Positions 100 to 23,683 of a stretch of DNA of 64,000 nucleotides are shown in pieces. The position numbers and the translations under genes were made by a program. The stretch is from the NCBI RefSeq assembly GCF_900564155.1, contig NZ_LS999839.1, positions 1,919,097-1,983,096 on the forward strand, written 5' to 3'. Numbering within the stretch: the stretch's first letter is position 1; every line of letters begins with the position of its first letter. This stretch comes from Pedobacter schmidteae (GTDB lineage Bacteria; Bacteroidota; Bacteroidia; Sphingobacteriales; Sphingobacteriaceae). The notes beneath the pieces were generated by a model that was not told where the DNA came from, searched no databases, and worked only from the letters and a program-made list of their open reading frames with translations.

Positions 100-138
100 T
101 TTGTTGTATACAAAAAAATAATATATTTGTATACATAA
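100..138 (+). promoter_or_regulatory. Double GntR operator over the susC promoter (box A)
   Basis: Two palindromes, TTGTATACAA (104-113) and TTTGTATACATA (core 128-135), have centres 23 bp apart. TTTG at 100-103 and TATATTTG at 122-129 are spaced 18 nt and match the Bacteroidota -33 and -7 elements, so each palindrome overlaps or touches one promoter element. Bound repressor would block transcription of the SusC operon. Essentially the same arrangement occurs at 7756-7794 and 14232-14270. The TTGT-NN-ACAA form fits known operators of FadR-type GntR proteins. That the GntR protein encoded at 6990 binds here is inferred. Confidence 0.8.
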
Positions 139-3400: not shown

Positions 3401-3609
3401 TGAGGGTGAAAAACTTGCAGCTTGGCTATACATTTAATAAGCCTTACCTGAAAAAAGTAGGGGTAGGAAGTATTCGTATTTACGGTTCGGCTGATAACCT
3501 GGCTACCATCACCAATTATCGTGGTTTGGATCCTGAAAAGGTGAGCTATAGCAATGATGTGTACCCGATTAGTAAAATGTTTGTACTGGGCTTGAATGTT
3601 GAATTATAA
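421..3609 (+). CDS. SusC/RagA-family TonB-dependent outer-membrane receptor
   Basis: A 1062-residue protein of usual SusC length. After a signal region (hydrophobic stretch about residues 17-33) come a carboxypeptidase-regulatory-like domain (about 50-115, with the GIPLPGVEV motif), the NELVVVGYG boundary, a plug domain (about 130-255, with VLKDAASAAVYGSRGANGV) and a C-terminal 22-strand-type barrel ending in LGLNVEL. SusC proteins use TonB energy to move oligosaccharides or other large ligands through the outer membrane with SusD as lid. SusD follows after 12 bp. No sigma/anti-sigma pair is adjacent; the promoter instead carries the GntR-type double palindrome. The ligand is unknown, but co-regulated genes suggest a sugar-acid-containing compound. 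Confidence 0.95.
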   Translation: MKTNFFRPKGVIKCWRIMRLTAIVSVAGILQAKAEPLHNHLFIQQDPVSQDGKVVDSEGIPLPGVEVRIVGSNVVTVTNGSGQYTIKAKKGDRLKFHLLGYADVEKIADLKFTTITLISSAQNLNELVVVGYGTQKKVNLLGAVAAIKVDDQLTSRSLPNVSSALQGMLPGLAVNQTSGMAGNNSATLLIRGLGTVNDANPLVVVDGMPDVNINRINMNDVESVSVLKDAASAAVYGSRGANGVILITTKSGKGAQGTKINASISSTIQKATNAFEFMPNYAKALTVTQRAQAVSLVPASITFKNGTIDEWFAKSMIDPLRYPNTDWWDIITRNGQLNNYNISATGGNEKSNFYLSVGAMDEKGIQIENDFKRYNALFSYDAKIKKSINLGVRFSGNWSNLKFNYEEGFTANGTSGLDIFTAPAGVTPYDPVTGYYGGAMAYNESILASNPYVDYINRNKNNLERQEAMGNVYFEYNPIPGLKGRIDYNLNYGSQFTWRADIPSRAYNFQLDAFNNRAYVGDNERIYNADRNNFKTQLTAKISYDKVIAKKHEFNVMAAYSEEFWKIRTLSANRENRFHPLLHELDAALGSVNITNNGASSTEGMRSYIGRLNYSAFNKYLFEVNFRADGSSRFIKGSQYGFFPSGAVGWRFTEESFIKPLTDKIGLTNGKFRASYGSLGNNNGVGLYEQQEVLTNTNYVNSTLNGSVVNQTAVLGFQNKKLINRDLTWEKTTMLNLGLDMAFLGNRLTTEFDYYNRLTTGMIRPGDLSILLASALSIPPLNQGPRKNLGDLRNRGLEANLTWKENRGDFGYMLNLNASYNTTVLEKWPEFLARSAVFIDMPYYFVYAYQSSGIAQTWEDVYNAPIQGASPGDILLKDLNGDGRIDHNDQVAYPNFQTQRPTTNFAFRGNVSWKGFDLGVMLQGATGRKDYYNNNMTNTKISQATNQAINWNQYLNTWAVDNRNAALPRLTSGTAAAPFTTNASTFWLDDVTYLRVKNLQLGYTFNKPYLKKVGVGSIRIYGSADNLATITNYRGLDPEKVSYSNDVYPISKMFVLGLNVEL

Positions 3610-3621
3610 AAGAAGATCATC

Positions 3622-5463
3622 ATGAAACAAAATTATTTTATACGGCTGTCTCTCTTGATTCTCCTGTTTGGCTCGTTTTTACTGGGTTCATGTAGAAAGG
3701 ATTTGCTGGACCAAAAATCTACAGTTGGCTTGCCTTCGGCTATTTACTGGCAAACGGAGGCTGATGCAACTTCGGCTTTAATGGGTGTTTATAATGCCTT
3801 TCGGGCTAGTTTCGACCGTGATTATCATTTCGATGGGCATGGGGAGTTTGTTAAAGTGTATAATACAGGAGCGGTTACACCTGCGCCACTTGGTGTGAAT
3901 AGTCCGAGTAATTACGGAGGTTCGGCCCTGGAGACTTACAAAAACTTGTATGGTGTGATCACACATGCGAATTATGTTATTGAAAATATAAATCTGCGCA
4001 TGCTGCCTGTTGCAAAGACCGATGCAGCTACCAAAAGCTTGGAAAGTATTGCCGGAGAGGCTCGTTTGTTGCGCGGAATTACCTATTTGCGCTTAATTTC
4101 TTTATGGGGCGATGTGCCTTATGTAGGGAAGATTATCTATAATCCTATAAATGTGGATACATTATCGAGAATGCCGATTAAGCAGGTTAAAGATTCTATT
4201 CTGGCCGATTTTACTTACGCCTTTGAAAAATTGCCGGTAAAAAATCCGGTAATTAGCCGGCCTTCAAAACCTGCGGCACTGGCTTTTAGGGGTAAAATGC
4301 AATTGTTTTGGGCAAGCTGGAATAAATTTGGCTGGCCCGAACTGGATAAATTTACTCCGAGTGTTACTGAAGCAGAAGTAGCCTACAGGGCGGCAGCAGC
4401 CGATTTTAAAGCTGTAATTCAGACCCCTGGTCTGGATCTTTTCCGTGGAGGTGATCCGGGACAATGGGGTACAATGGGGGCTGCAGATGTGTTGCCTAAC
4501 TATTATTATATGTTTATTCCTAATCCGGGTAATTTAAATGCCGGTGGAGAAATGTTGATGGTACTGCCGCATGGCTCTGGCATGACTCCAGTACAGGGTG
4601 ATGAATATCAACGTGTTTTTACGGGGCCGCTAAATGGCTTAGGGCAAAATCAGGTTATACCACGTTACGAACTTGCTAATCGTTATCAGTCGACCATTAC
4701 CGGCGACTTTCTACCACCGCTGGTGCAGATACAGCCGAATGTAGCGGGAGCACGTACAGCGCCAAACTCAGCGATTAATCCTGATAGTTATAAAGACCGG
4801 GATTATCGGATGAAGGCTACGATGTTGTGGGATTATGAAAAAATTATGGGACAGGGAGAGATTGATCAGACTGCCTATGTAAATTTTCTTTATAAAACCT
4901 TCTCTGGTAAGTCGACCATCAATGGGGTGGAGTATTTTAATTTTACGGATAATGGAACCAATTTGTCTGGCTATCAGTTTAGGAAATTTGTTAGGAATTA
5001 TGGCGGTTTGGCCAGGAGTAATGGTGATTTTAACTGGCCGGTAATGCGACTGGCAGATGTATTCTTAATGTATGCCGAAGCAACAAATGCGGTAGATGGG
5101 CCGCAGGCAGATGCGATAGCTTTGGTAAACAGGGTACGCCGCAGAGGTAATCTTCCTCCTTTGGCTGCATCTAAAACTTCAGGTGCTGCAGCATTTTTTA
5201 GTGCTATTGAGCAGGAACGTATTGTTGAGCTGGTGGGTGAAGGTCAGCGCGCATTTGATATACGTCGCTGGCGAGCCATAGAGCGCGTATTCGGGCCGGC
5301 GTATGGTGATGGGAAGTGGTTTATGGATACGCATGGGAACAATTGGGAGCGGTTTTTTCAAAATGCACCCGAGTTGACTTATCAGCGTTGCTATATCTAT
5401 CAGATTCCGGAAACAGAGCGTACCCGCAACAAAAACCTGACCCAAAATACACCATGGAGATAA
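3622..5463 (+). CDS. SusD/RagB-family nutrient-binding lipoprotein
   Basis: A 613-residue lipoprotein. The signal peptide ends in a lipobox (LLGSC, Cys at about residue 24), which places it on the outer membrane. The N-terminal part has the SusD-like TPR region (ATSALMGVYNAFR, then GEARLLRGITYLRLISLWGD) and the C-terminal part has the RagB signature (PVMRLADVFLMYAEA, then RIVELVGEGQRAFDIRRW). SusD caps its SusC partner and captures the substrate. It directly follows susC, as is usual, and is cotranscribed. Ligand specificity cannot be read from the sequence. Confidence 0.95.
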   Translation: MKQNYFIRLSLLILLFGSFLLGSCRKDLLDQKSTVGLPSAIYWQTEADATSALMGVYNAFRASFDRDYHFDGHGEFVKVYNTGAVTPAPLGVNSPSNYGGSALETYKNLYGVITHANYVIENINLRMLPVAKTDAATKSLESIAGEARLLRGITYLRLISLWGDVPYVGKIIYNPINVDTLSRMPIKQVKDSILADFTYAFEKLPVKNPVISRPSKPAALAFRGKMQLFWASWNKFGWPELDKFTPSVTEAEVAYRAAAADFKAVIQTPGLDLFRGGDPGQWGTMGAADVLPNYYYMFIPNPGNLNAGGEMLMVLPHGSGMTPVQGDEYQRVFTGPLNGLGQNQVIPRYELANRYQSTITGDFLPPLVQIQPNVAGARTAPNSAINPDSYKDRDYRMKATMLWDYEKIMGQGEIDQTAYVNFLYKTFSGKSTINGVEYFNFTDNGTNLSGYQFRKFVRNYGGLARSNGDFNWPVMRLADVFLMYAEATNAVDGPQADAIALVNRVRRRGNLPPLAASKTSGAAAFFSAIEQERIVELVGEGQRAFDIRRWRAIERVFGPAYGDGKWFMDTHGNNWERFFQNAPELTYQRCYIYQIPETERTRNKNLTQNTPWR

Positions 5464-6989: not shown

Positions 6990-7628
6990 ATGAAAGAGGA
7001 TTCGCAATCAAACAAAGTATATTCTGAATTGAGGAAAAAGATATTGTCTAATCAACTGGTTCCGGGAACAAGACTGAAGGAGGATGTCTGGGCAACAAAA
7101 ACTGAAGTGAGTCGCGTTTCTGTGCGCGAGGCGCTAAATCGTTTATTGGGCGAAGGTTTGTTGGAACTGGGCGAAAAGGGGGGGTATTACGTAAAAACGA
7201 TGACTGCAGCTGACGTCAGGGAAATCCGGGAGATTCGGGAGTTGTTGGAGTTGGGTGCTTTGAGGTTGGCTTTTAACCATGTTACTGCTGATGATATTGC
7301 TGAGCTGGATCGCATATGTGATGACTTTTCGGCGATGGTGAAAAACGGTTATTTTTCGGGTGCTTGCGAAGCAGATGTAAAGTTTCATGAAACCCTGATC
7401 AATATTTCCGGAAACGCTAAATTGAAGCAGCTTTATGAATTGAGTAATATTCCTTTGTTTCATTTGAAGCTTGGAAGGTCGCAGACCCATATGGATGATT
7501 ACGAGCTGACGGATAAAGAACACCGTGAGATTCTGAAGTCGCTGAAGACAAAGAGCCTGAAAAAGGCAGAAGAGTCTTTAATTAAACACCTTACCCGAGG
7601 TGAGGTGGCTTCATTGGAACTGGAGTAG
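6990..7628 (+). CDS. GntR-family transcriptional regulator, FadR/FCD subfamily
   Basis: A 212-residue regulator. An N-terminal winged helix-turn-helix (about 5-70, recognition region VSRVSVREALNRLL) is followed by an all-helical FCD ligand domain (about 76-208). Candidate metal ligands of the FCD pocket are Asp129, His133, His178 and His200. FCD regulators usually bind sugar acids or other small carboxylates and leave DNA on binding. It stands alone between the SusCD operon and the dehydratase operon. TTGT-NN-ACAA double palindromes lie at 104, 7760 and 14234, with a weaker copy at 6950. I infer it represses all three operons and itself. Confidence 0.92.
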   Translation: MKEDSQSNKVYSELRKKILSNQLVPGTRLKEDVWATKTEVSRVSVREALNRLLGEGLLELGEKGGYYVKTMTAADVREIREIRELLELGALRLAFNHVTADDIAELDRICDDFSAMVKNGYFSGACEADVKFHETLINISGNAKLKQLYELSNIPLFHLKLGRSQTHMDDYELTDKEHREILKSLKTKSLKKAEESLIKHLTRGEVASLELE

Positions 7629-7755: not shown

Positions 7756-7794
7756 TTTGTTGTATACAAAAAATAAATATATTTGTATACAAAA
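7756..7794 (+). promoter_or_regulatory. Double GntR operator over the aminotransferase-operon promoter (box C)
   Basis: TTGTATACAA (7760-7769) and TTTGTATACAAA (7782-7793) have centres 23 bp apart. TTTG (7756-7759) and TATATTTG (7778-7785) are spaced 18 nt, identical to box A. The leader to the ATG at 7879 would be about 87 nt and ends in an AAAGGA Shine-Dalgarno-like sequence. Confidence 0.82.
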
Positions 7795-7878: not shown

Positions 7879-9213
7879 ATGATAAATAGTTGGCTAAAAT
7901 CGGCGGGAGTAATTACCAAAAATGAAAAATGGATCCCTGGAGGGGTTGTTTCACTTAATCGGAAATCTGAGCCGAATATCTGTTTTTCAAGGGGATCTGG
8001 AAGCAGGGTGTGGGATATCGAGGGTAATGAGTATATCGACTACCAGGCTGGATTTGCTGCTGCGTTTCTGGGGCACAACGACCCGGATGTAAATGCTGCA
8101 GTTTTAGCTTCTATAAATGATCAGTCCGTATTGATGGGCGCAGGTCCCACAGATCTGGAAGGGCAATTTGCGGAATTGTTCTGTAAAAGTGTGCCTACGG
8201 CCGAGAAATTGCAGATCACCACTACGGGTTCTGAAGCAACATATCATGCTATCCGCATTGCAAGAGCGGTTACCGGACGAGATCATGTGATCATTATGCA
8301 AGGTGGATACAATGGCTGGCACAATGATGTGGCTGGAAACGTGATTAGTAACCTTCAGGATGTAGGCGAAAGGGTAAGTCCGGGCGAATATCCCTTTGAT
8401 TCTTTGTCGGCAGGAATTCCTGAGCAGCATAAGGCATTGATTCATGTGGTCAACTATAATGATCTGGAATCTGTGGAATACATTACCAAACGTTACCCGG
8501 TGGCTTGTATCATTCTGGAGCCTATCCTGCAAAATGTGGGCATTGTGAAGCCGGAGCAGGGCTATCTGGAAGGTTTGCGCAAGATGGCTGATGATAATGG
8601 ATTTCTGCTGATTTTTGATGAGGTAAAAACAGGTTTTCGTCATGCATTGGGTGGTTTTCAGAGTATTTGTGGTGTTACGCCCGATCTGAGTACTTTCGGT
8701 AAGGCCATAGCCAATGGATATCCCATGGGGGTAATTGCGGGTAAAGCCAAATACATGGATTATTTTGTGCATCCGGATAAAGAAAAAAGAGTGCTCATTG
8801 CAGGTACGTTTAATGCGCATCCATTGACCACTATTGCGGCTATAGCCACCTTGCAGAAGTTGTCTTCGGCAACGGCGTCGGTTTATCAGCATGTAGAGCA
8901 ACTGGGCGCAGTGCTGGAAAGTGGTTTGAATAATATCCTTTCCAAATACGATAAGCCCTTTTATGTTGCCCGTCAGGGATCTGCATTTTGTGTTTATTTT
9001 ATGGATCATGCTCCGAAAGATTTTCACGATATTGCTTTGAATAACGATGCTGCTTTTGATAAAGCATATCGCCATAAGTTAATTGAGGAAGGAATATTTA
9101 ATTTTCCATTGCCTTCTAAACAGGGAAGTATTTCTTTTGCGCACAGTATGGCAGATATAGAAGAGACACTGGAGAAAAATGAAAAAGTATTGTCGGCATT
9201 ATTTAACAGATAA
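7879..9213 (+). CDS. Class III PLP aminotransferase, glutamate-1-semialdehyde aminomutase-like
   Basis: A 444-residue fold-type I PLP enzyme. Visible motifs are TTTGSEATYHAIRIAR (about 114-129, phosphate-binding side), LIFDEVKTGFR with Asp247 for the pyridine nitrogen, and STFGKAIANGYP with Lys275 as Schiff-base lysine. It resembles HemL and related omega-aminotransferases, but its place as first gene of a sugar-acid operon with a GntR operator argues against haem synthesis. A role in removing or moving an amino group on a sugar-derived aldehyde or keto acid is more likely. The stop codon touches the next ATG, so translation is probably coupled. Confidence 0.9.
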   Translation: MINSWLKSAGVITKNEKWIPGGVVSLNRKSEPNICFSRGSGSRVWDIEGNEYIDYQAGFAAAFLGHNDPDVNAAVLASINDQSVLMGAGPTDLEGQFAELFCKSVPTAEKLQITTTGSEATYHAIRIARAVTGRDHVIIMQGGYNGWHNDVAGNVISNLQDVGERVSPGEYPFDSLSAGIPEQHKALIHVVNYNDLESVEYITKRYPVACIILEPILQNVGIVKPEQGYLEGLRKMADDNGFLLIFDEVKTGFRHALGGFQSICGVTPDLSTFGKAIANGYPMGVIAGKAKYMDYFVHPDKEKRVLIAGTFNAHPLTTIAAIATLQKLSSATASVYQHVEQLGAVLESGLNNILSKYDKPFYVARQGSAFCVYFMDHAPKDFHDIALNNDAAFDKAYRHKLIEEGIFNFPLPSKQGSISFAHSMADIEETLEKNEKVLSALFNR

Positions 9214-10392
9214 ATGAAAATAACAGCTATAGAGACGTTTGTGTGCCACGCACGCATGAGGAACTGGATCTTCGTAAAGATAGTAACCGATCAGCCCGGA
9301 CTTTGGGGCTGGGGTGAAGCTACACTGGAATGGCATACCCGTAGTGTTGTGGGGGCTATTGAGGACTTATCGCAGCTGCTTATTGGCGAAGATCCGCGCA
9401 GAATAGAACATTTGTGGCAAATGATGTACCGCCAGCATTTCTGGCATGGTAACGGTATTGTGAGAGGCACTGCTATTAGTGGAATTGACATTGCTTTGTG
9501 GGATATTGCAGGCAAAATACATGGCGTGCCTACCCATGAACTGTGGGGAGGTCGCGTACGTGATTACATCAGGTTGTATTGTCATCTTGGCGGAGGTAAA
9601 ATGGAAGATTTTTACCAGACCCGGCCCGATGATGCCAATCGTTTTGGCGAATTGGCCAGGCAAGCGGTTGAGGACGGCTTTACGGCTTTCAAATCGATGG
9701 CTGTACCCGAAACTATGCCTTTGGAGGGATTAAAACCTATACATTATGCAGAGGCTTGTGTGAAATCTATGCGCGAAGCGGTAGGTAATGACATTGATAT
9801 TATGGTGGATTGCCATGCCCGCCCTAGTCCGCGTATGGGAATGCAGTTTGCAAAAGCGCTGGAGCCTTATGGGTTGTATTTTTTTGAAGAGCCTTGCTGG
9901 CCGGAAAGTATAGATGATATCGCTTTAATTCAAAGAGCTGTATCTACACCAATAGCCAGTGGCGAGCGGCTGGTTACCATCCATGCTTTCAGGGAATTGT
10001 TTGAAAAGAGGGCGGTTAGTGTAATTCAGCCGGATATTACGCATTGTGGTGGATTGAGTGAGGTAAGGCGTATTGCGGCTATGGCCGAGGCGTACCGGAT
10101 TTCGATTGCGCCTCATAATCCGCAGGGACCTGTAAGTACTGCTGCTTCTATTGAATTTGGTTTTGCAACCCCGGGGTATATTATTTGTGAGAGTGTGCAC
10201 AACGATGTGCCATGGCGCGTAGATGTGGTGAGTGAAGGGTTTACGGTGGAGAAGAAAGGCCGGGTTGTGCGTCCGAACACAAGACTTGGTTTGGGTATTG
10301 AAATCAATGAGGAAGAGGTGAAGAAGCACCCATTTGAGCAGGAAGTGTTGCAAAGAACATTTTATAAAGATGGTAGTGTTGGCGATTGGTAG
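9214..10392 (+). CDS. Enolase-superfamily sugar-acid dehydratase (galactonate dehydratase-like)
   Basis: A 392-residue member of the mandelate racemase/muconate lactonising group, close in layout to DgoD. It begins MKITAIETF, and the barrel carries metal ligands Asp199 (in VDCHAR), Glu225 (FFEEP) and Glu251 (GER). His201 of the D-x-H pair and His301 (APHNP) with Asp274 act as acid/base residues, as in galactonate and mannonate dehydratases. Such enzymes turn aldonates into 2-keto-3-deoxy acids. It starts right after the aminotransferase stop. Exact substrate is unknown; the superfamily and dehydratase chemistry are well supported. Confidence 0.9.
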
Positions 10393-10410: not shown

Positions 10411-11184
10411 ATGGAAAAATTGTTTCAGGATAAGGTACTTGTCATCAGCGGAGGTCTGGGAGATATCGGGCAGGCCATCTGTCGTGAATTTGCAGGGCAG
10501 GGGGCAGCCATCGCCATTGGTGGTTTACAGGATGTGGCAGATGCGCAGGTATTTTTAGAAGAACTGAAGCAGTTGTGCAACGTGCCTTCGTATTATACAA
10601 AAGTGGATGTTGCCGATCCGGCAGCTGTTGACAGTTGGTTGCAGGAGGTGGAGTCTCATTTGGGTGTTCCCAGTCTGATCATTTCCAATGCGGCTACCGT
10701 AACCCAGGCGGCTATTCACCAGATGACACCCGAGGAATGGTCGCGGGAGCTGAGGGTGAACCTGGATGGTTCATTTTTCCTGACACAAAAAGCTACCAAA
10801 CGAATGGTGGAGGCGAACTTGCCGGGACACGTTATTTTTATCGGTAGCTGGGCGGCTGAGGCCGTGCATCCTAATCTTCCTGCTTATTGTGTTTCAAAGG
10901 CAGGGGTAAGGATGCTTTGCAGATGTATGGCACTTGAACTGGCTCCGCATCAGATTATGGTCAACGAAATTGCGCCCGGGTATGTTGAGGCTGGCTTAAG
11001 TGCCGAAATATGGGCCAAAAACCCAGGGCTGATTAATGAAGCGGCCAAAAAAGTTCCTGTTGGTAAAATTATGAGTGCTGCCGCTGTGGCGCAGCAGGTT
11101 GCTCATTTGTGTCACCCTGCCAATGAGCATATCACAGGCAGTACCCTGTTGATGGATGGCGGGCTTTCATTGCGCACTTTATGA
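10411..11184 (+). CDS. SDR-family oxidoreductase
   Basis: A 257-residue classical short-chain dehydrogenase. It has a glycine-rich cofactor loop (SGGLGDIG, residues 13-20), an SNAA motif in place of NNAG (about 92-95), catalytic Ser146, Tyr159 and Lys163 (YCVSK), and a C-terminal GSTLLMDGG. All catalytic residues are present, so it should oxidise or reduce a hydroxyl/carbonyl of a pathway intermediate with NAD(P). It lies 18 bp after the dehydratase gene and overlaps the next gene by four bases (ATGA), which indicates translational coupling. Confidence 0.92.
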   Translation: MEKLFQDKVLVISGGLGDIGQAICREFAGQGAAIAIGGLQDVADAQVFLEELKQLCNVPSYYTKVDVADPAAVDSWLQEVESHLGVPSLIISNAATVTQAAIHQMTPEEWSRELRVNLDGSFFLTQKATKRMVEANLPGHVIFIGSWAAEAVHPNLPAYCVSKAGVRMLCRCMALELAPHQIMVNEIAPGYVEAGLSAEIWAKNPGLINEAAKKVPVGKIMSAAAVAQQVAHLCHPANEHITGSTLLMDGGLSLRTL

Positions 11185-12542
11185 TCAGCGATAAATCATT
11201 TACCGGAATCATTGGGGTAGCACAGGAGGACATTACACCTCCGGTTGGTATTTATGCGCGCAGCTGGGGAGCCGCCTTGCAGGATGTTGCAGAAGGGGTT
11301 CACCGGCCATTAAAATTGACCTGTACTACATTTCAGCAAAGCAATGGGGATAAACCTATGGTCCTGATTTCAGCAGATATGGGCTGGTGGAAAAGTGCTG
11401 CAGATGAGCGGGAATTGCGAGGTGCCCTACTGGATGCTTTTCAGCTTCCTTCGTCGCATCTGATGTTTTGTTTGTCGCACACCCATGCCGGGCCTGCGCT
11501 GTTTTCTGAAGATGCTGTTAAGCCTGGTGGCGAATATATTATCCCTTATTTGAAGCTGATCCGGGAAAGGGCGATTGCCGCGGTTGACCAGGCATTAAAA
11601 AGTGCTGCTTTATCGACACTTTCCTGGCGTTATGGTAAATGCAGTCTGGCCACCAATCGTGATTTGCCGGATGTAAACAGCGACAGGTTATTGGTGGGAT
11701 TTAATCCGGATGAACCTGCAGATGATACTTTGCTGGTGGGCCGCATTGTGGACGCAACGGGAAAGATTACGGGTACAATTGTAAATTATGCCTGTCACCC
11801 AACTACATTGGCCTGGGATAACCAATTGATTTCTCCTGATTATGTAGGTGCAATGCGCGAAATGCTTGAGGAAAGTTATACTGCACCCTGTCTTTTTTTA
11901 CAAGGTGCTTCGGGCGAACTGGCGCCTGCAGAGCAATATTCGGGCGATTGCGGATTGGCCGATGCTTATGGTCGCCAGTTGGGGCATGCCGCTATGGCGG
12001 TATTGGAGTCGATGTATCCGGCAAATACGGGCCTCGCTTTAGCTGAGGTGGTGGAGTCGGGTGCGCCACTTGCGGTTTGGAAAAAACATGCCGTTCCACC
12101 GTCTACGGTATTGCGTGTTGAGCAGGTTGATATGGCTATGGTCTTAAAAAAACTGCCTTCATTGCAGGAGATTGAACGTCAATGGAGCGAGTGTGAAGAC
12201 CATGTGTTAAAAGAGCGGCTTTGGCGTATGCGGGGGATCCGCAAAACGGTAGGTGAGGGCGATGTGTCGGTGATGCCGCTTTGGGTATGGAGATTGGGAG
12301 GGGCTTGTATAGTGGGGCAGCCGAATGAGGCTTATTCTTATTTTCAACAAGAACTGCGTAAGCAACTGTATGCGTATCCTGTGGCTGTGATGAACATTGT
12401 GAACGGTTATGCCGGTTACTTACCACCGCAGGAACTATATGTAAAAAATATGTATGCCGTTTGGCAAACACCCTTTGCTGCGGGGGCGCTGGAGCAATTG
12501 ACTGCGACAGCTATTAGCATAGCAAAAAAAATGATGACCTAA
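11181..12542 (+). CDS. Neutral/alkaline ceramidase N-terminal-domain-like protein
   Basis: A 453-residue protein with the metal-site motifs of the neutral ceramidase fold: SHTHAGP (His100, His102) and NYACHPTTL (His206), plus LQGASGELAP where true ceramidases have a GDVSPN-type motif. It has no signal peptide and lacks the C-terminal immunoglobulin-like domain, so it should be cytoplasmic and is unlikely to act on ceramide. Family members of this short kind are common in sugar operons, probably as amide or ester hydrolases of unknown substrate. With an aminotransferase in the same operon, an N-acyl or amide substrate would make sense, but this is inference. Confidence 0.8.
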   Translation: MISDKSFTGIIGVAQEDITPPVGIYARSWGAALQDVAEGVHRPLKLTCTTFQQSNGDKPMVLISADMGWWKSAADERELRGALLDAFQLPSSHLMFCLSHTHAGPALFSEDAVKPGGEYIIPYLKLIRERAIAAVDQALKSAALSTLSWRYGKCSLATNRDLPDVNSDRLLVGFNPDEPADDTLLVGRIVDATGKITGTIVNYACHPTTLAWDNQLISPDYVGAMREMLEESYTAPCLFLQGASGELAPAEQYSGDCGLADAYGRQLGHAAMAVLESMYPANTGLALAEVVESGAPLAVWKKHAVPPSTVLRVEQVDMAMVLKKLPSLQEIERQWSECEDHVLKERLWRMRGIRKTVGEGDVSVMPLWVWRLGGACIVGQPNEAYSYFQQELRKQLYAYPVAVMNIVNGYAGYLPPQELYVKNMYAVWQTPFAAGALEQLTATAISIAKKMMT

Positions 12543-12555
12543 CCAAATAGTCTAC

Positions 12556-14127
12556 ATGAACTCAAATTTTACTGCCCTTGATGCTGCCGTTTTCGGTATT
12601 TATATTCTGGGTATTATTGCGCTTGGTATTTATGCTTCAAGAAAAGGCAGTAGTACAAAAAGAGATTATTTTTTGGCTGGCGATAAGTTGCCATGGTGGA
12701 TGGTTGGGGGGAGTATTATAGCTGCGAATATCAGCAGTCACCAACTGGTGGGTGTAATGGGAGTGGCTTATAGTAGGGGTTTTGTGGCTGTGGTGACCGA
12801 ATGGGGGGCGATATTGATTGGTTTTAACGCTTTGCTTTGGGTTTTTCTGCCTTTTTATCTGCGCAATGGCTTTTATACCATGCCCGAGTTTTTGCAGAAA
12901 CGCTTTGGTGAAGGTGCGCGTACCATTTATTCAGTACTGGTATTGCTGACTTATATTTTTGTTGAGATCAGTGCGGTACTTTACCTGGGGGCCTTATCGC
13001 TGCAGGCGCTTTTGGGTATTCCTATGATCAGTAGTGTGTTGATATTGGCCATTACTACCGGTATTTATACCATTGCCGGTGGATTGCGTGCGGTGATCTG
13101 GACAGAGATGGTGCAGTTGGCGGTGTTGATGTTGGGGATGTTTGCGCTTTCCTATACTACCATAGATGCTGCCGGTGGCTTTTCGGCGGTGCTGGAAACT
13201 ACTAAGGACTGGAAGCTGATGATGCCGGCAAGTGATCCCGATTTTCCATGGACCATGTATTTGGGGGGCTTGTTGTGTATCAGTATTTTTTATAATGCTA
13301 CCAATCAGTTTATTGTGCAGCGTACGTTGGCGGCCAAAAATGAATGGCACGCCCGTATGGGGATCATCTTTGGTGATTATCTGAAATTTTTACTTCCTTT
13401 ATTGATTATTTTTCCTGCCCTGGTTGCTGCAAAATTGTTTCCGCATCTGGATAAACCGGATCTGCTGTTTGCTACTTTGGTGGAGAATTTGTTGCCATCC
13501 GGATTGGTAGGGTTGGTAATGGCTGGCTTGATTGCTGCGGTCATGTCGCACCTTTCGGGTGCTATAAATTCCTGCACTACCATTTTAACTATGGATGTTT
13601 ATTTGCCCTATATCCGGCCTCAGTCGACAGAAAAACAATCTGTAAGATTTGGAAAGGTGACGGGGGTGGTGATCATTACATTGGGTATTATATGTACCGC
13701 CTTGCTTACACAATATTCGCATAAACCTATTTTTATTTATTTGATGAATGCTTACGGCTATTTTACACCGGGTATTGCCACTATGTTTTTGCTGGGGATT
13801 TTGTGGAAACGTACTACGCATGCAGGGGCATTGGTGGCCGGGCTGTTGACTATTCCGTTGTCTTTGGCTATTGAGTATGGGTTCCCTGGAATGCCGTTTT
13901 TTAACCGTACGGGTATTGTTTTTTGGTCCTGCATGGTGTGCTGTGTATTGGTTAGTCTGCTTACCAAACCGAAGCCTGCGGCAGAACTTACAGGGTTGAT
14001 CTGGACGCGTGATAGCCTTTCTTTGCCTCTTGCAGAACGTGCGCAACAACGCGGCTGGCGTAATCCTTTTATCTGGTGGGCAATTGTAACCGTAATGGTG
14101 CTCTATTTCTACATCAAATACGCGTAG
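12556..14127 (+). CDS. Sodium:solute symporter (SSS family)
   Basis: A 523-residue inner-membrane protein with about 13 hydrophobic helices. N-terminal features such as RDYFLAGDKLPWWMVGGS and AANISSHQLVGVMG are typical of the SGLT/SSS group. These carriers couple sodium entry to uptake of sugars, sugar acids or amino acids. It is the last gene of the operon, 13 bp after the ceramidase-like gene, and is the likely inner-membrane uptake route for the compound handled by the locus. Confidence 0.92.
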   Translation: MNSNFTALDAAVFGIYILGIIALGIYASRKGSSTKRDYFLAGDKLPWWMVGGSIIAANISSHQLVGVMGVAYSRGFVAVVTEWGAILIGFNALLWVFLPFYLRNGFYTMPEFLQKRFGEGARTIYSVLVLLTYIFVEISAVLYLGALSLQALLGIPMISSVLILAITTGIYTIAGGLRAVIWTEMVQLAVLMLGMFALSYTTIDAAGGFSAVLETTKDWKLMMPASDPDFPWTMYLGGLLCISIFYNATNQFIVQRTLAAKNEWHARMGIIFGDYLKFLLPLLIIFPALVAAKLFPHLDKPDLLFATLVENLLPSGLVGLVMAGLIAAVMSHLSGAINSCTTILTMDVYLPYIRPQSTEKQSVRFGKVTGVVIITLGIICTALLTQYSHKPIFIYLMNAYGYFTPGIATMFLLGILWKRTTHAGALVAGLLTIPLSLAIEYGFPGMPFFNRTGIVFWSCMVCCVLVSLLTKPKPAAELTGLIWTRDSLSLPLAERAQQRGWRNPFIWWAIVTVMVLYFYIKYA

Positions 14128-14231: not shown

Positions 14232-14270
14232 TTTTTTGTATACAAAAAAATTATATATTTGTATACATAT
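14232..14270 (+). promoter_or_regulatory. Double GntR operator over the Nramp-operon promoter (box D)
   Basis: A long palindrome TTTTTTGTATACAAAAAA (14232-14249) and TTTGTATACATA (core 14260-14267) have centres 23 bp apart. TATATTTG (14254-14261) is the -7 element; the -33 element is either TTTG at 14235 (15 nt spacing) or less clear. The site is nearly the same as boxes A and C and ties this operon to the same repressor. Confidence 0.8.
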
Positions 14271-14343: not shown

Positions 14344-15546
14344 ATGAAAAATTTAAAAAAATGGTTGGTTTCCATAGGGCCTGGAATTGTGACTGCAGCT
14401 ATTGTATTTGGGCCAAGTAAAATTACAATTACCTCAAAAATGGGGGCTATGTATGGTTATAGCTTGTTGTGGGTAGCAGTTGTGGCTGTTTTTTTTATGA
14501 TTGTATTTACTTCCATCAGCTCACGGATTGGCCTGGCCAGTGATGTTTCGTTGTTAAGTACTATCCGCAACCATTACGGCAAATGGGTTTCCATATGTAT
14601 GGGGATTGGCATTTTTCTGGTAGCTGCGTCTTTTCAGGCAGGAAACTCTATTGGCGTTGGTATTGCTGTAGGCGAGGCTACCGGTACACCGCCTGCACGT
14701 TGGATTATCCTTTTTAATGCCATTGCCATCGGGCTACTGTTTTTTCGAAATTTTTATAAAACCCTCGAAAGATTGGTGATTACCATTGTAACCTTAATGC
14801 TCTTTTCGTTTTTAACCACCATGTTTTTGTCTAAGCCCGATGTTACGGGGATTGTAAAAGGCTTTGTTCCTTCCATTCCGGTAGGTTCGGGGGGCTTGCT
14901 CATTGCTTTTTTTGCTTCCTGTTTTTCTATTGTGGGGGCCTTTTATCAGTCTTATTTAATTCAGGCACGCAAAAAAATCAGTCCCGATCTGGTATTGGAT
15001 AACAGTAAGGGGCTGGCAGGAATGATTATTTTAGGGGTGATGAGCTCGGTGCTGATGATATGTGGTGCAGCGGTATTGCACGAGCAGGGAATTCCTGTAA
15101 ACAAGGCCTCGGATATGGCCAGGGCATTGGAGCCATTATTTGGTCATAATGCTGCGCTGTTGTTTTTGATTGGCTTGTTTGGTTCTTCATTCTCCTCGTT
15201 GGTGGGTAACGCAACTATTGGTGGTTCGCTACTTTCTGATGGTTTTGGCTATGGAAGTCAGCTCGACTCAAAGGTAGTAAAAGCACTCATAGCGCTGGTA
15301 ATGATAATAGGCGCTTCCATTGCCATCGGGTATGAAAAGCCGCCGTTGGAGCTGATCATTTTTGCACAGAGTGTAACCATATTTCTAGTGCCCTTTATTG
15401 GAGCGGCCATGTATATGCTGGCCAATAAACGCAGTTTAATGGGGGGCTATGTCAATACGCCGTTTATGCGCTATGCCGGATTTACGGGTATTTTGCTGCT
15501 GGTTCTTCTGGCGATATATAATTTTAATGAACTGTTTTTAAAATAA
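14344..15546 (+). CDS. Nramp-superfamily carrier lacking metal-ligand motifs
   Basis: A 400-residue, 11-helix membrane protein that aligns along its length with MntH/Nramp proteins. A TTG just upstream (14341) is in frame, but ATG at 14344 is preferred. Helix 1 has GPSK (residues 23-26) where Nramp has the metal-binding DPGN. Helix 6 has SIV (195-197) before GAFYQSYLIQ, where Nramp has MPH before NxYLHSxLVQ. All main metal ligands are therefore replaced. It heads an operon with an aldolase and sugar dehydrogenase under the GntR operator. I infer it carries an organic substrate, perhaps a sugar acid, and not manganese or iron. Confidence 0.85.
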   Translation: MKNLKKWLVSIGPGIVTAAIVFGPSKITITSKMGAMYGYSLLWVAVVAVFFMIVFTSISSRIGLASDVSLLSTIRNHYGKWVSICMGIGIFLVAASFQAGNSIGVGIAVGEATGTPPARWIILFNAIAIGLLFFRNFYKTLERLVITIVTLMLFSFLTTMFLSKPDVTGIVKGFVPSIPVGSGGLLIAFFASCFSIVGAFYQSYLIQARKKISPDLVLDNSKGLAGMIILGVMSSVLMICGAAVLHEQGIPVNKASDMARALEPLFGHNAALLFLIGLFGSSFSSLVGNATIGGSLLSDGFGYGSQLDSKVVKALIALVMIIGASIAIGYEKPPLELIIFAQSVTIFLVPFIGAAMYMLANKRSLMGGYVNTPFMRYAGFTGILLLVLLAIYNFNELFLK

Positions 15547-15574: not shown

Positions 15575-16591
15575 ATGAGTAATTTAACCCTGTTAGAACA
15601 AGAGATCTTAAAACCTTCAGAAGCGTTGGTTGAAGATGTGAGCCGTATAAAAGGCGACATTATGCTATTGGGCGTTGCTGGTAAAATGGGCCCTTCAATG
15701 GCTCGTGTAGCTCGTCAGGCGGTTGATATTGCAGGAACCGGTCAACGCATTATTGGGGTCTCCCGCTTTTCAGACCCTGCATCCCGTGCTGCGCTCGAAG
15801 CTTCGGGTGTGGAGACTATTGCTGCCGATTTGTTGAATGAGGCAGAATTGGCTGCACTTCCGGATGCTCCCAATGTGATCTATCTTGCAGGGCATAAATT
15901 TGGTACCACAGGTAAAGAGGCTTTTACCTGGGCCATGAATGCTTATCTTCCTGGCCGTGTGGCCGAAAAATACCGCAATTCCAATATCGTTGCATTTTCT
16001 TCAGGGAATGTATTGCCGTTTGTGCCGGTTACCTCAGGAGGGGTGTCTGAGGAAACCAGTCCCGAGCCTATAGGCGAGTATGCGCAGTCCTGCCTGGGGC
16101 GCGAAAGGATATTTGAATATTTTTCGCAAAAAAATGATACCCCAATGCTGATCTACCGGTTAAACTATGCGGTTGATTTCCGCTACGGGGTGTTGGTAGA
16201 AATTGCGAAGTCAGTTTTGAGCGGAAAAGCCATCGACCTGCGTACCGAAAACGTAAATGTCATCTGGCAGGGTGATGCCAACGAAGTTGCCATCCGATCT
16301 TTGCTGCATTGCGAATCGCCTGCAAAAATACTAAATGTTACCGGCCCGGAAACCCTGTCCATTAAATGGGCAGCCCACCAGTTTGGAACTATTTTTGGTA
16401 AAGAGCCAAGTTTTGTAAATGAAAGCGCAGGTACTGCTTTATTAAACAATGCTTCCGAATGTCATCGTTTATTTGGTTATCCTAAAGTTACGGTTCGGGA
16501 AATTATTGAGCTTACGGCTACCTGGATGCAGGAGGGGGGAGAAGCATTGAACAAACCAACACATTTTCAGGAAAGATCAGGTAAATTTTAA
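15575..16591 (+). CDS. NAD(P)-dependent epimerase/dehydratase-like protein
   Basis: A 338-residue extended-SDR protein. The nucleotide loop GVAGKMGPSM (about 33-42) and the FSSGNVLPF stretch with the active-site serine region (about 141-149) are visible. Tyr169 sits in the place of the catalytic Tyr, but the Lys four residues on is Cys173 (YAQSCLGRE), so the YxxxK pair is broken. Either another residue replaces the lysine or the protein acts differently. It is 28 bp after the Nramp-like gene and 3 bp before the aldolase-like gene, so the three are cotranscribed and probably work on one intermediate. Confidence 0.82.
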   Translation: MSNLTLLEQEILKPSEALVEDVSRIKGDIMLLGVAGKMGPSMARVARQAVDIAGTGQRIIGVSRFSDPASRAALEASGVETIAADLLNEAELAALPDAPNVIYLAGHKFGTTGKEAFTWAMNAYLPGRVAEKYRNSNIVAFSSGNVLPFVPVTSGGVSEETSPEPIGEYAQSCLGRERIFEYFSQKNDTPMLIYRLNYAVDFRYGVLVEIAKSVLSGKAIDLRTENVNVIWQGDANEVAIRSLLHCESPAKILNVTGPETLSIKWAAHQFGTIFGKEPSFVNESAGTALLNNASECHRLFGYPKVTVREIIELTATWMQEGGEALNKPTHFQERSGKF

Positions 16592-16594: not shown

Positions 16595-17656
16595 ATGGCA
16601 GCACAATTATTATCCACACAAAAGCAGGCTATTCTGAGGCAAGGAACGGTTATTCCTGCTCATCCGCTGGCACTTAATTCAAGCCGGGAATTGAATGAAG
16701 ATTACCAGCGTCAGCTTACCCGCTATTACCTGGCATCGGGTGCGGGTGGGGTAGCTGTTGGGGTACACAGCACACAGTTTGCTATTCGCAATCCGCAGGT
16801 TAACCTCTACGAAAGGGTACTTGCGCTGGCTGCCGAGGAAATTGCTAAATCGGGTGCTCAGGATCGTTTTATCAGTGTTGCGGGTATTTGCGGTGATACC
16901 GATCAGGCCATTCGCGAGGCAAAACTTAGCCTGAGTTATGGTTATGACCTGGGTTTGCTGAGCATGGGTGGCTTGCAGGATAAAACAGAGGAGGAGATAC
17001 TGGACCGGACCAGGGCGGTGGCTGCTATAATGCCGGTATTTGGGTTTTATTTGCAGCCTAGTGTAGGTGGGCGTATCTTTTCTTATGATTTCTGGCTTCA
17101 GTTTGCCGATATTGAAAATGTACTGGCCATTAAAGCGGCGCCATTTAACCGTTATCAAACGCTGGATATGGTGCGGGCGGTGTGCCATTCTAAAAGAAAT
17201 AAAGAGATTACCCTTTATACCGGTAATGATGACAATATTGTAGCCGATTTGCTGACGACTTATCGGTTTGAGATTGATGGAGAAACTGTTAGCAAAAGAT
17301 TTGAAGGAGGTTTGTTGGGGCATTGGGCGGTATGGACGGAGGCTGCGGTAAGGCTTTTTGTCGAAATTAAGCAATGTCGTGATGCGGGATATGAGGGTGT
17401 AGCTAATTTCCTGGCCAAGGGCGTGGCGGTAACCGATATGAACGCTGCTATTTTTGATCCTTCGCACGGTTTTCATGGTTGTATCCCTGGAATTCACGAA
17501 GTATTGAGAAGGCAGGGCCTGATGGAGGGTATCTGGTGTCTGGATCCACATGAGGATTTGTCGCCGGGACAAGCCGATGAGATTAGTCGGGTATGCAAGG
17601 CTTATCCCGAGCTTATAGATGACGATTTTGTGAGGTCTTTTCTCGCAAAAAACTAA
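16595..17656 (+). CDS. DHDPS/KDG-aldolase family lyase
   Basis: A 353-residue class I aldolase-type barrel. Lys180 (LAIKAAPFNRY) is the likely Schiff-base lysine and Tyr152 (FGFYLQPSVGG) the partner tyrosine. It is longer than DHDPS (about 290) because of an extended C-terminal part. With an acid-sugar dehydratase under the same regulator, cleavage or dehydration of a 2-keto-3-deoxy acid is the simplest role, not lysine synthesis. The usual GxxGE motif near residue 50 is altered (GAGGVAVG), which supports a different substrate. Confidence 0.85.
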   Translation: MAAQLLSTQKQAILRQGTVIPAHPLALNSSRELNEDYQRQLTRYYLASGAGGVAVGVHSTQFAIRNPQVNLYERVLALAAEEIAKSGAQDRFISVAGICGDTDQAIREAKLSLSYGYDLGLLSMGGLQDKTEEEILDRTRAVAAIMPVFGFYLQPSVGGRIFSYDFWLQFADIENVLAIKAAPFNRYQTLDMVRAVCHSKRNKEITLYTGNDDNIVADLLTTYRFEIDGETVSKRFEGGLLGHWAVWTEAAVRLFVEIKQCRDAGYEGVANFLAKGVAVTDMNAAIFDPSHGFHGCIPGIHEVLRRQGLMEGIWCLDPHEDLSPGQADEISRVCKAYPELIDDDFVRSFLAKN

Positions 17657-17666: not shown

Positions 17667-19181
17667 ATGATATTAAAGACCGGTGCTATGACACGTCTGA
17701 TCAGAATAATTGCTTTATTGCCATTGGCAGGCTTGTTTATCCATTGTAATTCCTCCATGCTTAATAATCCGCCCGAACAGCAGTTCCGGATAGGGGCAAG
17801 TACGGTTGGCATACAATCGGTAGCTACAAACTTAAATGTGCCATGGCAAATTGCCTGCGGCCCTGATCAGCAGATCTGGTATACCGAACAATCGGGTAAC
17901 ATCAGCAAAGTTAATCCGGAGACTGGAAAAATAAGGCGCTTGCTAAGGCTGCCTGATGTGATTCGCGACCGTACGTCGGGCTTGCTGGGGATGACCTTGC
18001 ATCCTGATCTGAAGATTAAACCTTATGTTTTTATTAACTATACGGGTTATTCCAAAACAAAAAGCAGGGTGTCGAAAGTGGTGCGTTATACTTATGATGC
18101 GCAAAAAGATACGTTGATTAGTCCGGTTGTATTTCTGGAATATCCGGCCTGGACTTCTCATTTTGGCTCCCGTATTGCCATTGCGCCTGATGGAAAGGTG
18201 ATGATTTCTACCGGTGATGGTGCACAGGACGATAATGCGCAGAACATCAAATCGCCGAATGGAAAAGTGCTGCGTTATAATTTAGACGGCAGTATTCCCG
18301 GTGATAATCCCTTTAAGGGAAATCCGGTATGGGCCTGGGGTTTGCGCAATCCGCAAGGACTGGTATATGCCAATGGTAAGCTATATTGTTCGGACCATGG
18401 TGATGCTACCGATGATGAGGTGAACCTGATTCGTAAGGGCGCTAATTACGGATGGCCATTTGTAGAAGGTTTTGTGGATACAGAGAAAGAAAAGCTTTTT
18501 GCCAAAGATTCTGTAGTTACGGCGCCACTGCAGGCATGGACACCTACTGTTGCACCGGCAGGAATGGCCTATTATGCTTCAGATAAGATTCCGGAGCTTA
18601 AGGGGCAATTGTTGCTGACTACGCTTAAAGGCAATAGCCTGAGGGCGCTAAAGTTAAATGCTGCCGGGACCGGAATTATTAAAGACATCAATTACTTTGA
18701 GAAGGTTTTTGGACGTTTGCGTTCTGTATGTGTGTCGCCTGCGGGGGATGTATATATTGCGACCAGTAACCGCGACTGGAACCCTAATGCTAAGCCGGCC
18801 AAAAATGATGACCGGATTATACGTATATACAGATTGGATGCAAAACATGCGCATCCCGGGGCTAGATCGGCCGTTATTGTCCATAAAAGTACCGAAATAC
18901 TAAACAAAGGTGCTTTGTTGTATACCAATTATTGTGCATCCTGCCATAAAGATGACGGTAAGGGTGTAGAAAATACCTTCCCGGCTTTGTTGAAGTCGTC
19001 GGTTGTTGCGGGAGATAAAAAACTACTGCTGCATACCGTGCTGAATGGCCGCAAGGTGATGCCTAAATTCTCTTTTATTGAGGATAATGACCTGGCGGTG
19101 CTGCTCACTTACGTGCGTAAGCAGTTCGGCCCGGCTGCTGATGCGGTGTCGATTGAAGAGGTTAAGAACGCCAGGAAATAA
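17667..19181 (+). CDS. PQQ-type sugar dehydrogenase fused to cytochrome c
   Basis: A 504-residue exported protein. The N-terminus is hydrophobic and ends near FIHCNSS, possibly a lipoprotein signal with a poor lipobox; an alternative ATG lies at 17688. Residues about 50-390 form a glucose/sorbosone dehydrogenase-type beta-propeller (ISTGDGAQDDNAQN, WAWGLRNPQGL, GANYGWPFVEG). A C-terminal class I cytochrome c domain has CASCH (Cys423, Cys426, His427) and a likely axial Met in VMPKF. It should oxidise an aldose or alcohol in the periplasm and pass electrons to the respiratory chain. It ends the operon, 10 bp after the aldolase gene. Confidence 0.88.
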   Translation: MILKTGAMTRLIRIIALLPLAGLFIHCNSSMLNNPPEQQFRIGASTVGIQSVATNLNVPWQIACGPDQQIWYTEQSGNISKVNPETGKIRRLLRLPDVIRDRTSGLLGMTLHPDLKIKPYVFINYTGYSKTKSRVSKVVRYTYDAQKDTLISPVVFLEYPAWTSHFGSRIAIAPDGKVMISTGDGAQDDNAQNIKSPNGKVLRYNLDGSIPGDNPFKGNPVWAWGLRNPQGLVYANGKLYCSDHGDATDDEVNLIRKGANYGWPFVEGFVDTEKEKLFAKDSVVTAPLQAWTPTVAPAGMAYYASDKIPELKGQLLLTTLKGNSLRALKLNAAGTGIIKDINYFEKVFGRLRSVCVSPAGDVYIATSNRDWNPNAKPAKNDDRIIRIYRLDAKHAHPGARSAVIVHKSTEILNKGALLYTNYCASCHKDDGKGVENTFPALLKSSVVAGDKKLLLHTVLNGRKVMPKFSFIEDNDLAVLLTYVRKQFGPAADAVSIEEVKNARK

Positions 19182-20142: not shown

Positions 20143-20216
20143 CTCCCTCTGCTGGGCTCGAACCAGCGACCCTCTGATTAACAGTCAGATGCTCTAACCA
20201 GCTGAGCTAAGAAGGA
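20143..20216 (-). tRNA. tRNA-Asn (GUU), copy 1
   Basis: The minus strand folds as a 74-nt cloverleaf. The acceptor TCCTTCT pairs with AGAGGGA (one T-G pair), the discriminator is G, the anticodon loop CTGTTAA has anticodon GTT, and the T-loop is TTCGAGC. The CCA end is not encoded. The same tRNA occurs at 30004-30077, and about 70 bp of upstream sequence is also similar. Confidence 0.96.
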
Positions 20217-20321: not shown

Positions 20322-21482
20322 TTAAAATATTTTCTGAATACTTTCTGCGGCGTAACCGGCGCTGGCCGTCATGCCCTTGCCGCCAATTGCTGTGCGGATG
20401 TGGATACAGTTGTCTATGTCGTAGGTTACGATGTGCTTAGTTGGGTGCTGTGGATAAAAGCCGGCCCAGGTACTTTGTAGTTTGCGTACATCAAAATCTA
20501 CAATGCGCGCTGCTTCCTGTAGCATCAGTTCGTTAATGTGGTGACTGAGATCGAAACCCAGGTCGTCGAAATGGTTTACATCAGCGTACACGTGCGAATC
20601 GCCAATAATAATACTGTTGTCTGTTGCCTGCTTAAACAGTATATGGATGCCCCATTTTTTTAGCTCTTCGTAATGTGAAGGCGTTTTTAGGGTTTTGAAA
20701 GAAGGGCAATAATGCTCAAAGCTCTCGTACCTCCTGGTGGTTAGGCCGGTTAAGATGTTTCCTGCCAGTCGTATATCGGCCATAGGCACTGTACGCATCA
20801 TCTGGAGTTTGCTTACCACGATGCCGCTTTGGCTAAACAGTTCGGGGTATAGCAGTTTAAATTCGTAACCGTTACAGATCAGCGCTTTCTGGGCCGTAAA
20901 AGGCTTGTCGTTGGCTTTTAAACCTACTTTTACGCCATTGCCATTACTTTCGCAAACTGTTACCGGACTGTTGTATTGCAACGTATAGGTTTTAAATTTA
21001 GCCTGCATGTACTGATGCAGACGGTAAATCATCAATTCGGGTTCTACACTGATTTCCTGTGGGAAAAATATCGCTTCCTTTGCATAAGTAGATTTAATGG
21101 CAGGATACTGATTTAAAATGGCCGCCTGATTTAATAGCTCGGTGTCATAACCCAGGCTATCGTAATGTGCTTTCAGCTCGTGTATCAATGTCTGTTCATC
21201 CTCATCGGAGGCGATGTAAAGACTGCCGTTGTTGCGTACCGAAATGTCAAACTCTTGCTGGATAGACTTATAGATTTCAAGTCCTGCTACACCATATTCA
21301 AACCATTCGGCTTCCATGCCTGATGGCACGACCTGACCGAAATTGCGTACCGTGGCGCCCACAGGATAATTATCTTTTTCCAGCTGCAATACTGTTTTGC
21401 CGGCAGCTAAGGCATGATAAGCATGGAAAGTGCCCAATACACCGCCGCCAATTACAATAAGATCAAAATGTTTAGGAGTCAT
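20322..21482 (-). CDS. FAD-dependent oxidoreductase of the phosphonate-associated TIGR03364 type
   Basis: A 386-residue DAO-family flavoprotein. The Rossmann motif IVIGGGVLGTFHAYHAL (about 10-26) binds FAD and a C-terminal GGKGMTASAG closes the site. The stretch VGATVRNFGQVVPSGM fits the subgroup placed in phosphonate gene clusters, where an amine oxidation of an aminoalkylphosphonate is proposed. Two genes upstream in the same direction is a PhnX-like hydrolase, the other marker of this cluster. It lies 77 bp after the carrier gene and is the last gene of the operon. Substrate is inferred from context. Confidence 0.82.
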   Translation of the reverse strand: MTPKHFDLIVIGGGVLGTFHAYHALAAGKTVLQLEKDNYPVGATVRNFGQVVPSGMEAEWFEYGVAGLEIYKSIQQEFDISVRNNGSLYIASDEDEQTLIHELKAHYDSLGYDTELLNQAAILNQYPAIKSTYAKEAIFFPQEISVEPELMIYRLHQYMQAKFKTYTLQYNSPVTVCESNGNGVKVGLKANDKPFTAQKALICNGYEFKLLYPELFSQSGIVVSKLQMMRTVPMADIRLAGNILTGLTTRRYESFEHYCPSFKTLKTPSHYEELKKWGIHILFKQATDNSIIIGDSHVYADVNHFDDLGFDLSHHINELMLQEAARIVDFDVRKLQSTWAGFYPQHPTKHIVTYDIDNCIHIRTAIGGKGMTASAGYAAESIQKIF

Positions 21483-21559
21483 GTTGTTTTTTTGCTGAGG
21501 CCTGGCCGCTTTTTAAATTTCGGATTGGCTCAAATTTATATTAAAAATGGTTAATTCTA

Positions 21560-22891: not shown

Positions 22892-22896
22892 CTTTC

Positions 22897-23577: not shown

Positions 23578-23606
23578 ATTGTTTGTTTTTTTTTTAAATA
23601 ATACAA

Positions 23607-23637: not shown

Positions 23638-23683
23638 AGTCTGGATTATCAAATTGTTAATTTTGTATCGCCTTATGTTACTG

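Follow-up and report, generated by a model that had tools for sequence, protein, structure and literature searches.

An Nramp-family protein with replaced metal ligands, encoded in a putative sugar-acid operon of Pedobacter schmidteae, is a candidate organic-acid carrier

We analyzed a 64,000-nucleotide stretch of the Pedobacter schmidteae chromosome (the window) and found that it encodes an Nramp-fold carrier in which the canonical metal ligands have been replaced. The protein appears to be a secondary importer with the LeuT fold that descended within the Nramp family (PF01566) and takes up an organic acid, most likely a sugar acid or a sugar lactone; we assign this reading a probability of roughly 0.7. 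An organic substrate is suggested because the helix-1 Asp and helix-3 Glu are gone, the partner genes are conserved, the gene lies behind a private operator, and organic-type transporters occur at 8 of 13 related loci that have no Nramp gene. A first, sequence-only reading of this DNA had proposed an Nramp branch that transports an organic compound; among the readings considered here, that one is best supported. The substrate is probably a sugar acid, a class named from the gene neighbors only.

The carrier gene runs from an ATG at 14344 to a stop at 15546, with an in-frame TTG at 14341. The sequence-only reading had described the protein as MntH-like through both ends. In agreement with this, it matched PF01566 as a full-length family member (residues 31 to 372; E = 2.3e-71; 241.1 bits against a cutoff of 29.8) and scored 92 bits against the NCBIfam model Nramp_1 ("Nramp family divalent metal transporter"; cutoff, 50). 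The solved structures that it matched in phmmer searches were Nramp-family proteins (21 distinct sequences).

Inspection of the metal site revealed that helix 1 carries GPSK in place of DPGN. Gly23 aligned with the canonical Asp in an alignment to solved structures, in a MAFFT alignment of 87 homologues, and in profile-profile comparisons (hhalign). Helix 6 carries Ser-Ile-Val in place of Met-Pro-His; this region aligned without gaps in phmmer and MAFFT and in hhalign comparisons with profiles of Asp-type noncanonical and PxpT-like proteins. The third hhalign comparison, with the canonical set, gave a gapped helix-6 alignment and was set aside, as the other methods agreed on the ungapped one. 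Neither the gapped nor the ungapped alignment restored Met, His, Asp, or Glu in helix 6. Helix 3 has Asn101 instead of an acidic residue, so that the protein lacks the DPGN, MPH, and acidic helix-3 features of canonical Nramp/SLC11 sequences. Both substitutions pointed out from the sequence therefore held, and no alignment put Asp and Met back at the metal site. The source genome also encodes a canonical Nramp protein with DPGN and MPH. An AlphaFold model of the carrier with five relatives had a mean pLDDT of 49.4, and no claim made here rests on it; viral contigs were scanned three times for further relatives usable in structure modeling, and none was found.

Table 1. Positions of the carrier gene, its metal-site codons, and the surrounding genes and operators in the window
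Feature	Position	Strand	Basis
Operator before susC	104..135	+	exact match
SusC-like TonB-dependent receptor, plug and carboxypeptidase-regulatory-like domains	421..3609	+	family match
SusD-family protein	3622..5463	+	family match
GntR/FCD regulator, probable owner of the operator	6990..7628	+	family match
Operator before aminotransferase unit	7760..7791	+	exact match
Class III aminotransferase	7879..9213	+	family match
Galactonate dehydratase-like enolase-superfamily enzyme	9214..10392	+	NF010624, 337.7 bits (cutoff, 311)
Short-chain dehydrogenase (SDR)	10411..11184	+	family match
Neutral ceramidase-like hydrolase	11181..12542	+	family match
Sodium:solute symporter (SSS), second transporter of the regulon	12556..14127	+	family match
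Operator before Nramp unit, two TTGTATACA half-sites	14236..14267	+	exact match
Nramp-fold carrier, GPSK/SIV type, 400 aa	14344..15546	+	ORF list, Pfam, alignments
G23-P24-S25-K26 codons, helix 1, replacing DPGN	14410..14421	+	alignment to solved Nramps, MAFFT, profiles
Q98-A-G-N101 codons, helix 3; N101 replaces DraNramp E134	14635..14646	+	alignments
S195-I196-V197 codons, helix 6, replacing M-P-H	14926..14934	+	alignments
Epimerase/dehydratase-like protein, triad partner 1	15575..16591	+	Pfam Epimerase, 26.4 bits (cutoff, 20.9)
DHDPS-like protein, Schiff-base Lys retained, triad partner 2	16595..17656	+	Pfam DHDPS, 21.0 bits (just below cutoff, 22.1)
Glucose/sorbosone dehydrogenase domain plus cytochrome c; N terminus resembles a lipoprotein signal (by eye)	17667..19181	+	domain match

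The carrier gene is followed by the epimerase-like gene, the DHDPS-like (aldolase) gene, and the gene for a glucose/sorbosone dehydrogenase with cytochrome c, with intergenic gaps of 28, 3, and 10 nucleotides (Table 1). The operon of epimerase-, aldolase-, and sugar dehydrogenase-like genes noted in the sequence-only reading is thus present, but it is the epimerase and the aldolase that are the conserved partners; together with the Nramp gene, we refer to them as the triad. Seven of the 12 triad loci (the window, L048 to L050, and L054 to L056) also have a sugar dehydrogenase homologue nearby. In the DHDPS-like family, the Schiff-base Lys was invariant across 19 aligned sequences. In the epimerase-like family, the GxxGKMG stretch and the extended-SDR Tyr are kept in the 19 aligned sequences, and the usual Lys four residues on is Cys or Val. 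With the Tyr kept and the Lys replaced, the chemistry of this family may be unusual. The closest solved structures to the DHDPS-like protein were weak matches only (E = 0.032 and 0.071), and the epimerase-like protein had none at 0.01; we therefore ascribe no exact reaction to either partner. A partner of the class I aldolase type implies a keto-acid substrate or intermediate.

Three units of the window lie behind the same operator, TTGTATACA-N14-TTGTATACA: the susC/susD unit, the unit that runs from the aminotransferase gene through the galactonate dehydratase-like, SDR, and ceramidase-like genes to the SSS gene, and the Nramp unit. The sequence-only reading had noted an operator common to the Nramp and SusCD units. 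The case is stronger than it was then stated, as the three sites are the only exact matches in the whole 6.2-Mb genome (one of them with a minus-strand match as well), the genome contains 0 matches to the reversed pattern, and shuffling of the window gave an expectation of 0.00. The operator is retained in three Pedobacter loci (L048 to L050), and exact copies among the fetched loci were confined to own-genome and Pedobacter loci. Mismatched copies were sought in the window and 11 loci; when as many as 3 of the 18 fixed bases were allowed to differ, no copy was found in L051 to L058, and the perfect palindromes listed 5' of the Nramp gene in seven of these (not L052) included no comparable double site. 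The GntR/FCD protein encoded in the window is probably the repressor to which the operator belongs. A weak copy (3 of 18 mismatched) lies at 6950 to 6981, directly before the GntR/FCD gene, and a similar one precedes the GntR gene of L048 (at 2591); autoregulation through the weak copy is possible.

Elsewhere in the window, a minus-strand cluster (20322 to 25261) encodes a TIGR03364 FAD oxidoreductase (above cutoff), a PhnX-like hydrolase (just below cutoff), a helix-turn-helix (HTH) regulator, and a phosphatase/sulfatase-superfamily protein (weak matches), and perhaps serves phosphonate breakdown. Two minus-strand tRNA genes with equal Rfam scores (20143 to 20216 and 30004 to 30077) flank it.

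The phylogeny and gene neighborhoods of GPSK-type homologues, proposed as a check along with the sequence-only reading, were then examined, the former in a tree of 86 homologues built by a quick method with SH-aLRT support only. The homologues were gathered with the carrier as the query, apart from a family search of its own genome, which favors its own type and makes the sample uneven. The tree and the counts omit the second, very divergent match of L059; L003, L004, and L006 duplicated other rows and were dropped, and copies from longer stretches that proved identical were collapsed into one. The carrier fell in a clade of 12 (SH-aLRT, 99), comprising 11 Bacteroidota proteins, among them a 60%-identical copy from its own genome, and one from Brevibacillus massiliensis (49%). 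In all 12, the same epimerase and aldolase genes adjoin the Nramp gene. All 12 also have Gly at the Asp position, Asn in helix 3, and Ser or Thr at the Met position. The open frames are full length throughout, and helices 1, 3, and 6 are strongly conserved.

Helix 1 reads GPSK in 9 of the 12 members, placing Lys at the Asn-ligand position, and GPGS in the other 3. GPGS is the wider form, and Lys26 is therefore a local addition; the GPSK signature is present in the carrier as first described but marks a local variant rather than the type. The carrier's wider group (24 rows, mostly GP(G/S)(S/K) proteins; SH-aLRT, 90) stands apart from the GPGT proteins. The carrier gene is patchy, with a match of at least 60% identity in 4 of 25 genomes of the genus (that of the window included), and among the 11 other loci with the triad, only 3, each from Pedobacter, were found to have the aminotransferase/dehydratase/SSS unit upstream. 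The second triad of the source genome (G000:C1:5219513-5220709; L047 and L053) comprises the 60%-identical Nramp-like gene, an epimerase gene, and an aldolase gene, with SusC/SusD-like genes also there; the operator had no match at this locus. In B. massiliensis, the epimerase-like gene is split over two frames (L052, 7841 to 8853), and the Nramp-like and aldolase genes are intact.

The linkage was also apparent at the level of whole genomes. Five of 395 Bacteroidota genomes gave a DHDPS-like match at E ≤ 1e-60, and these are the very five with an Nramp match (E ≤ 2e-58, at most four candidates scored per genome); in one of these (G210) the two genes lie on different contigs. By our own arithmetic, which ignores relatedness and linkage, the chance of such an overlap is about 1 in 8e10. 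Among 398 Bacillota genomes, five encode a DHDPS-like protein, and the Nramp gene adjoins it only in Brevibacillus.

To these loci we compared 13 that have no Nramp gene, namely, 9 of 20 plasmid records with a DHDPS-like gene and all 4 Bacillota genome loci of this kind. The epimerase-like gene adjoins the DHDPS-like gene in all 13, and at the eight loci mentioned above organic-type transporters lie close by: sugar ABC systems in Paenibacillus (L117), Streptomyces (L120), and Glaciihabitans (L125), an ABC system with a solute-binding protein in G500 (L138), a tripartite tricarboxylate system in Nitratireductor (L122), a major facilitator superfamily (MFS) carrier in Rhodococcus (L121), and other ABC systems in Sulfitobacter (L123) and Tistrella (L124). 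The remaining five yielded no transporter, L118 and L119 by annotation and L139 to L141 by eye; L118 covers 10 kb at the end of its record. Gfo/Idh-like genes and/or a gene for a repeat protein of about 650 residues recur both in Nramp-bearing loci (L051, L052 [a fragment], and L054 to L056) and in Nramp-less ones (L117, L118, L120, L138, and L141). Some bacteria thus seem to feed this pathway through the Nramp-like carrier, and others through transporters for sugars or carboxylates. No other line of evidence speaks as strongly for an organic substrate as this replacement. The argument is not a clean one, because 6 of the 12 Nramp-bearing loci hold another organic-type carrier (SSS in the window and L048 to L050, ABC permeases in L052, and MFS in L051) and no transporter was seen in 5 of the 13 loci that lack the Nramp gene. 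No further inner-membrane carrier was recognized by eye among the listed open reading frames of L053 to L058.

The second carriers bear on the alternative that survives best, namely, that the protein is a divergent metal carrier that supplies the pathway's metal-dependent enzymes with Mg2+, Mn2+, or Ca2+ and is coinduced with them. Enolase-superfamily enzymes require Mg2+, and the second carriers could themselves bring in the organic substrate. MumT of Acinetobacter is reportedly a manganese importer. A ycsG-like gene, that of MumT, is placed among the urea-utilization genes of Acinetobacter baumannii in PMC10448178, which also reports that overexpression of YcsG, encoded in a 5-oxoprolinase operon, raised cellular Mn2+, and whose authors regard it as a third Mn2+ importer. 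We nonetheless consider a metal substrate unlikely for the carrier studied here: the Asp and Glu ligands are gone, the Asn ligand is Lys in most of the clade, and in the eight Nramp-less loci listed above the partner genes keep company with sugar or carboxylate transporters. An Rfam scan of the window, in which only the two tRNAs scored above threshold, likewise found no M-box or manganese riboswitch.

Since LeuT-fold proteins include exchangers, the carrier might instead export or exchange a product of the pathway, such as pyruvate or another small acid, and leave import to the SSS protein or another carrier. The presence of two inner-membrane carriers in the window's regulon, and of a second carrier near half of the Nramp-bearing loci, would fit such a division of labor. 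In L053 to L058, however, the Nramp protein is likely the importer, as no further inner-membrane carrier was seen there, and we regard this alternative as less probable again than metal transport. The loss of all known ligands would by itself allow a further reading, in which the protein transports nothing and is either a sensor (transceptor) or an inactive carrier; this is hardly credible given the intact frames, the conserved helices, and the conserved linkage in the clade.

Import of an organic acid also accords with the wider family. The 86 proteins divide into 53 with Gly and 33 with Asp at the Asp position; in helix 3, Asn accompanies Gly in 52 of 53, and Glu or Asp accompanies Asp in 32 of 33. 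Of 27 proteins with GPGT in helix 1, 24 have pxp (5-oxoprolinase) genes within the range scanned, mostly 1.5 kb to either side. Two more have pxp genes a few kilobases off (L083 and L087), and the last (L131, Haloarcula) adjoins hydantoinase/oxoprolinase genes. In longer stretches, pxpA, pxpB, and pxpC occurred together in 20 of 21 GPGT loci. No pxp genes were found beside the 33 Asp-type relatives or in the longer stretches of three of them, in the scanned stretches of the 11 other triad-clade loci, or among the Pfam matches of the unit in the window. The source genome encodes, next to pxpA and pxpC, a very divergent Nramp-family protein with GPGF (L005; G000:C1:520516-521499).

In haloarchaea, 5 loci with GPGS proteins were opened, and all 5 have Gfo/Idh oxidoreductases close to the GPGS protein; one of these (L130) also has an epimerase-like gene (53% identity) nearby. 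On a Haladaptatus plasmid (L127), a GPGS-type homologue sits between sulfatase and heparinase II/III genes, followed by Gfo/Idh genes. Bacillota homologues of the GPGS type (L103 to L105; 38 to 41% identity) are near DHDPS-family and enolase-superfamily genes. A protein of about 430 residues in L103, with no Pfam match, seems on visual inspection to have counterparts in L104 and L105. In the tree, the canonical proteins form a long branch beside the GPGT group; given this long branch, the Gly-type branches may be one group or several, and Gly may be ancestral or of more than one origin.

These patterns lead us to a broader proposal, which we hold with less assurance than the main reading, though we lean toward it: PF01566 would contain one or more large organic-acid branches marked by helix-1 Gly and helix-3 Asn and serving at least two substrate groups, 5-oxoproline (GPGT, with pxpABC) and sugar or keto acids (GPGS/GPSK, with the epimerase and aldolase, or with Gfo/Idh in haloarchaea). 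Nramp proteins are regarded as transporters of metal ions, a label that annotation pipelines propagate; two pxp-linked relatives that we scanned also exceeded the NCBI cutoff for "Nramp family divalent metal transporter." If the proposal is true, many genes with this name move no metal, and metal transport is one of several uses of the fold. A simple residue rule, Gly/Asn versus Asp/Glu, would then separate organic-acid from metal carriers, and the kinship of metal and organic-substrate carriers within one family would become testable with existing proteins.

In amino-acid carriers of the APC superfamily, a broken helix 1 serves as a carboxylate-binding loop, and we envisage a similar role here within an alternating-access LeuT-fold cycle. 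With the carrier open to the outside, the carboxylate of the substrate would dock on the broken helix 1, where GP(S/G)(K/S) stands for DPGN and where backbone amides, together with Lys26 or Ser, could meet its charge. The rest of the site would be lined by polar side chains from helices 3 and 6 (Gln98, Asn101, Ser192, Ser195, and Gln202), and Lys26, where present, may repel cations and attract the acid. The carrier would then close and open inward, import being the presumed direction, and the substrate would pass to the epimerase-like and Schiff-base DHDPS-like enzymes of the same transcript. The lipoprotein-like sugar dehydrogenase of that transcript possibly makes the acid in the periplasm, and the putative GntR/FCD repressor would free all three units on binding a sugar-acid inducer.

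Comparison with known systems places the carrier apart from each of them. With the canonical Nramp/MntH proteins, BfraNramp included, it shares the family and the full-length alignment but not the DPGN, the MPH, or the helix-3 Glu. In BfraNramp, a clade B protein, changing the helix-1 Asp (D38A) or the helix-3 Glu (E116A) abolished metal transport in each case, and the helix-3 position is Glu, Asp, or Asn across several Nramp-related clades (PMC12873925). The NRMT magnesium carriers, such as EleNRMT, are like the carrier a noncanonical branch of PF01566 with a changed TM1/TM6 site; they keep the TM1 Asp in a DxxG-TxxA/T motif (PMC8806188), whereas the carrier has Gly in its place and reads GPSK and S192-C-F-S195. 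The existence of a PF01566 outgroup distinct from both NRMT and Slc11 has been described (PMC9606685), and the Nramp outgroup has been suggested to be evolutionarily linked to carriers of nonmetal substrates (PMC4072509). MumT, compared by description, resembles the carrier in belonging to the Nramp family, its gene being linked to urea-utilization genes, and differs in its reported role as a manganese importer.

Close parallels are PxpT of Corynebacterium glutamicum and YcsG of Bacillus subtilis, Nramp-related proteins proposed to carry 5-oxoproline. PxpT is required for growth on 5-oxoproline, and its authors leave metal transport possible (PMC13274462). These proteins share with the carrier the PF01566 fold and a catabolic operon setting, and PxpT is under a GntR-type regulator (same source). 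By proxy of pxp-linked homologues, which were compared in place of PxpT and YcsG themselves, they also share the helix-1 Gly and the helix-3 Asn. The pxp-linked homologues nevertheless form a separate clade with about 25 to 31% identity to the carrier; they have GPGT in helix 1 and TTVVPYN in helix 6, as opposed to GPSK/GPGS in the carrier's clade and SCFSIVG in the carrier, and they lie beside pxpABC rather than beside an epimerase and an aldolase. We searched open-licence papers for Nramp proteins that act on organic substrates or are encoded in loci for polysaccharides or sugar acids; the matches listed included PxpT/YcsG for 5-oxoproline, and no sugar-acid case was seen among them. An organic Nramp-related branch is thus already on record (PMC13274462), and what the carrier would add is a second such branch in a sugar-acid setting.
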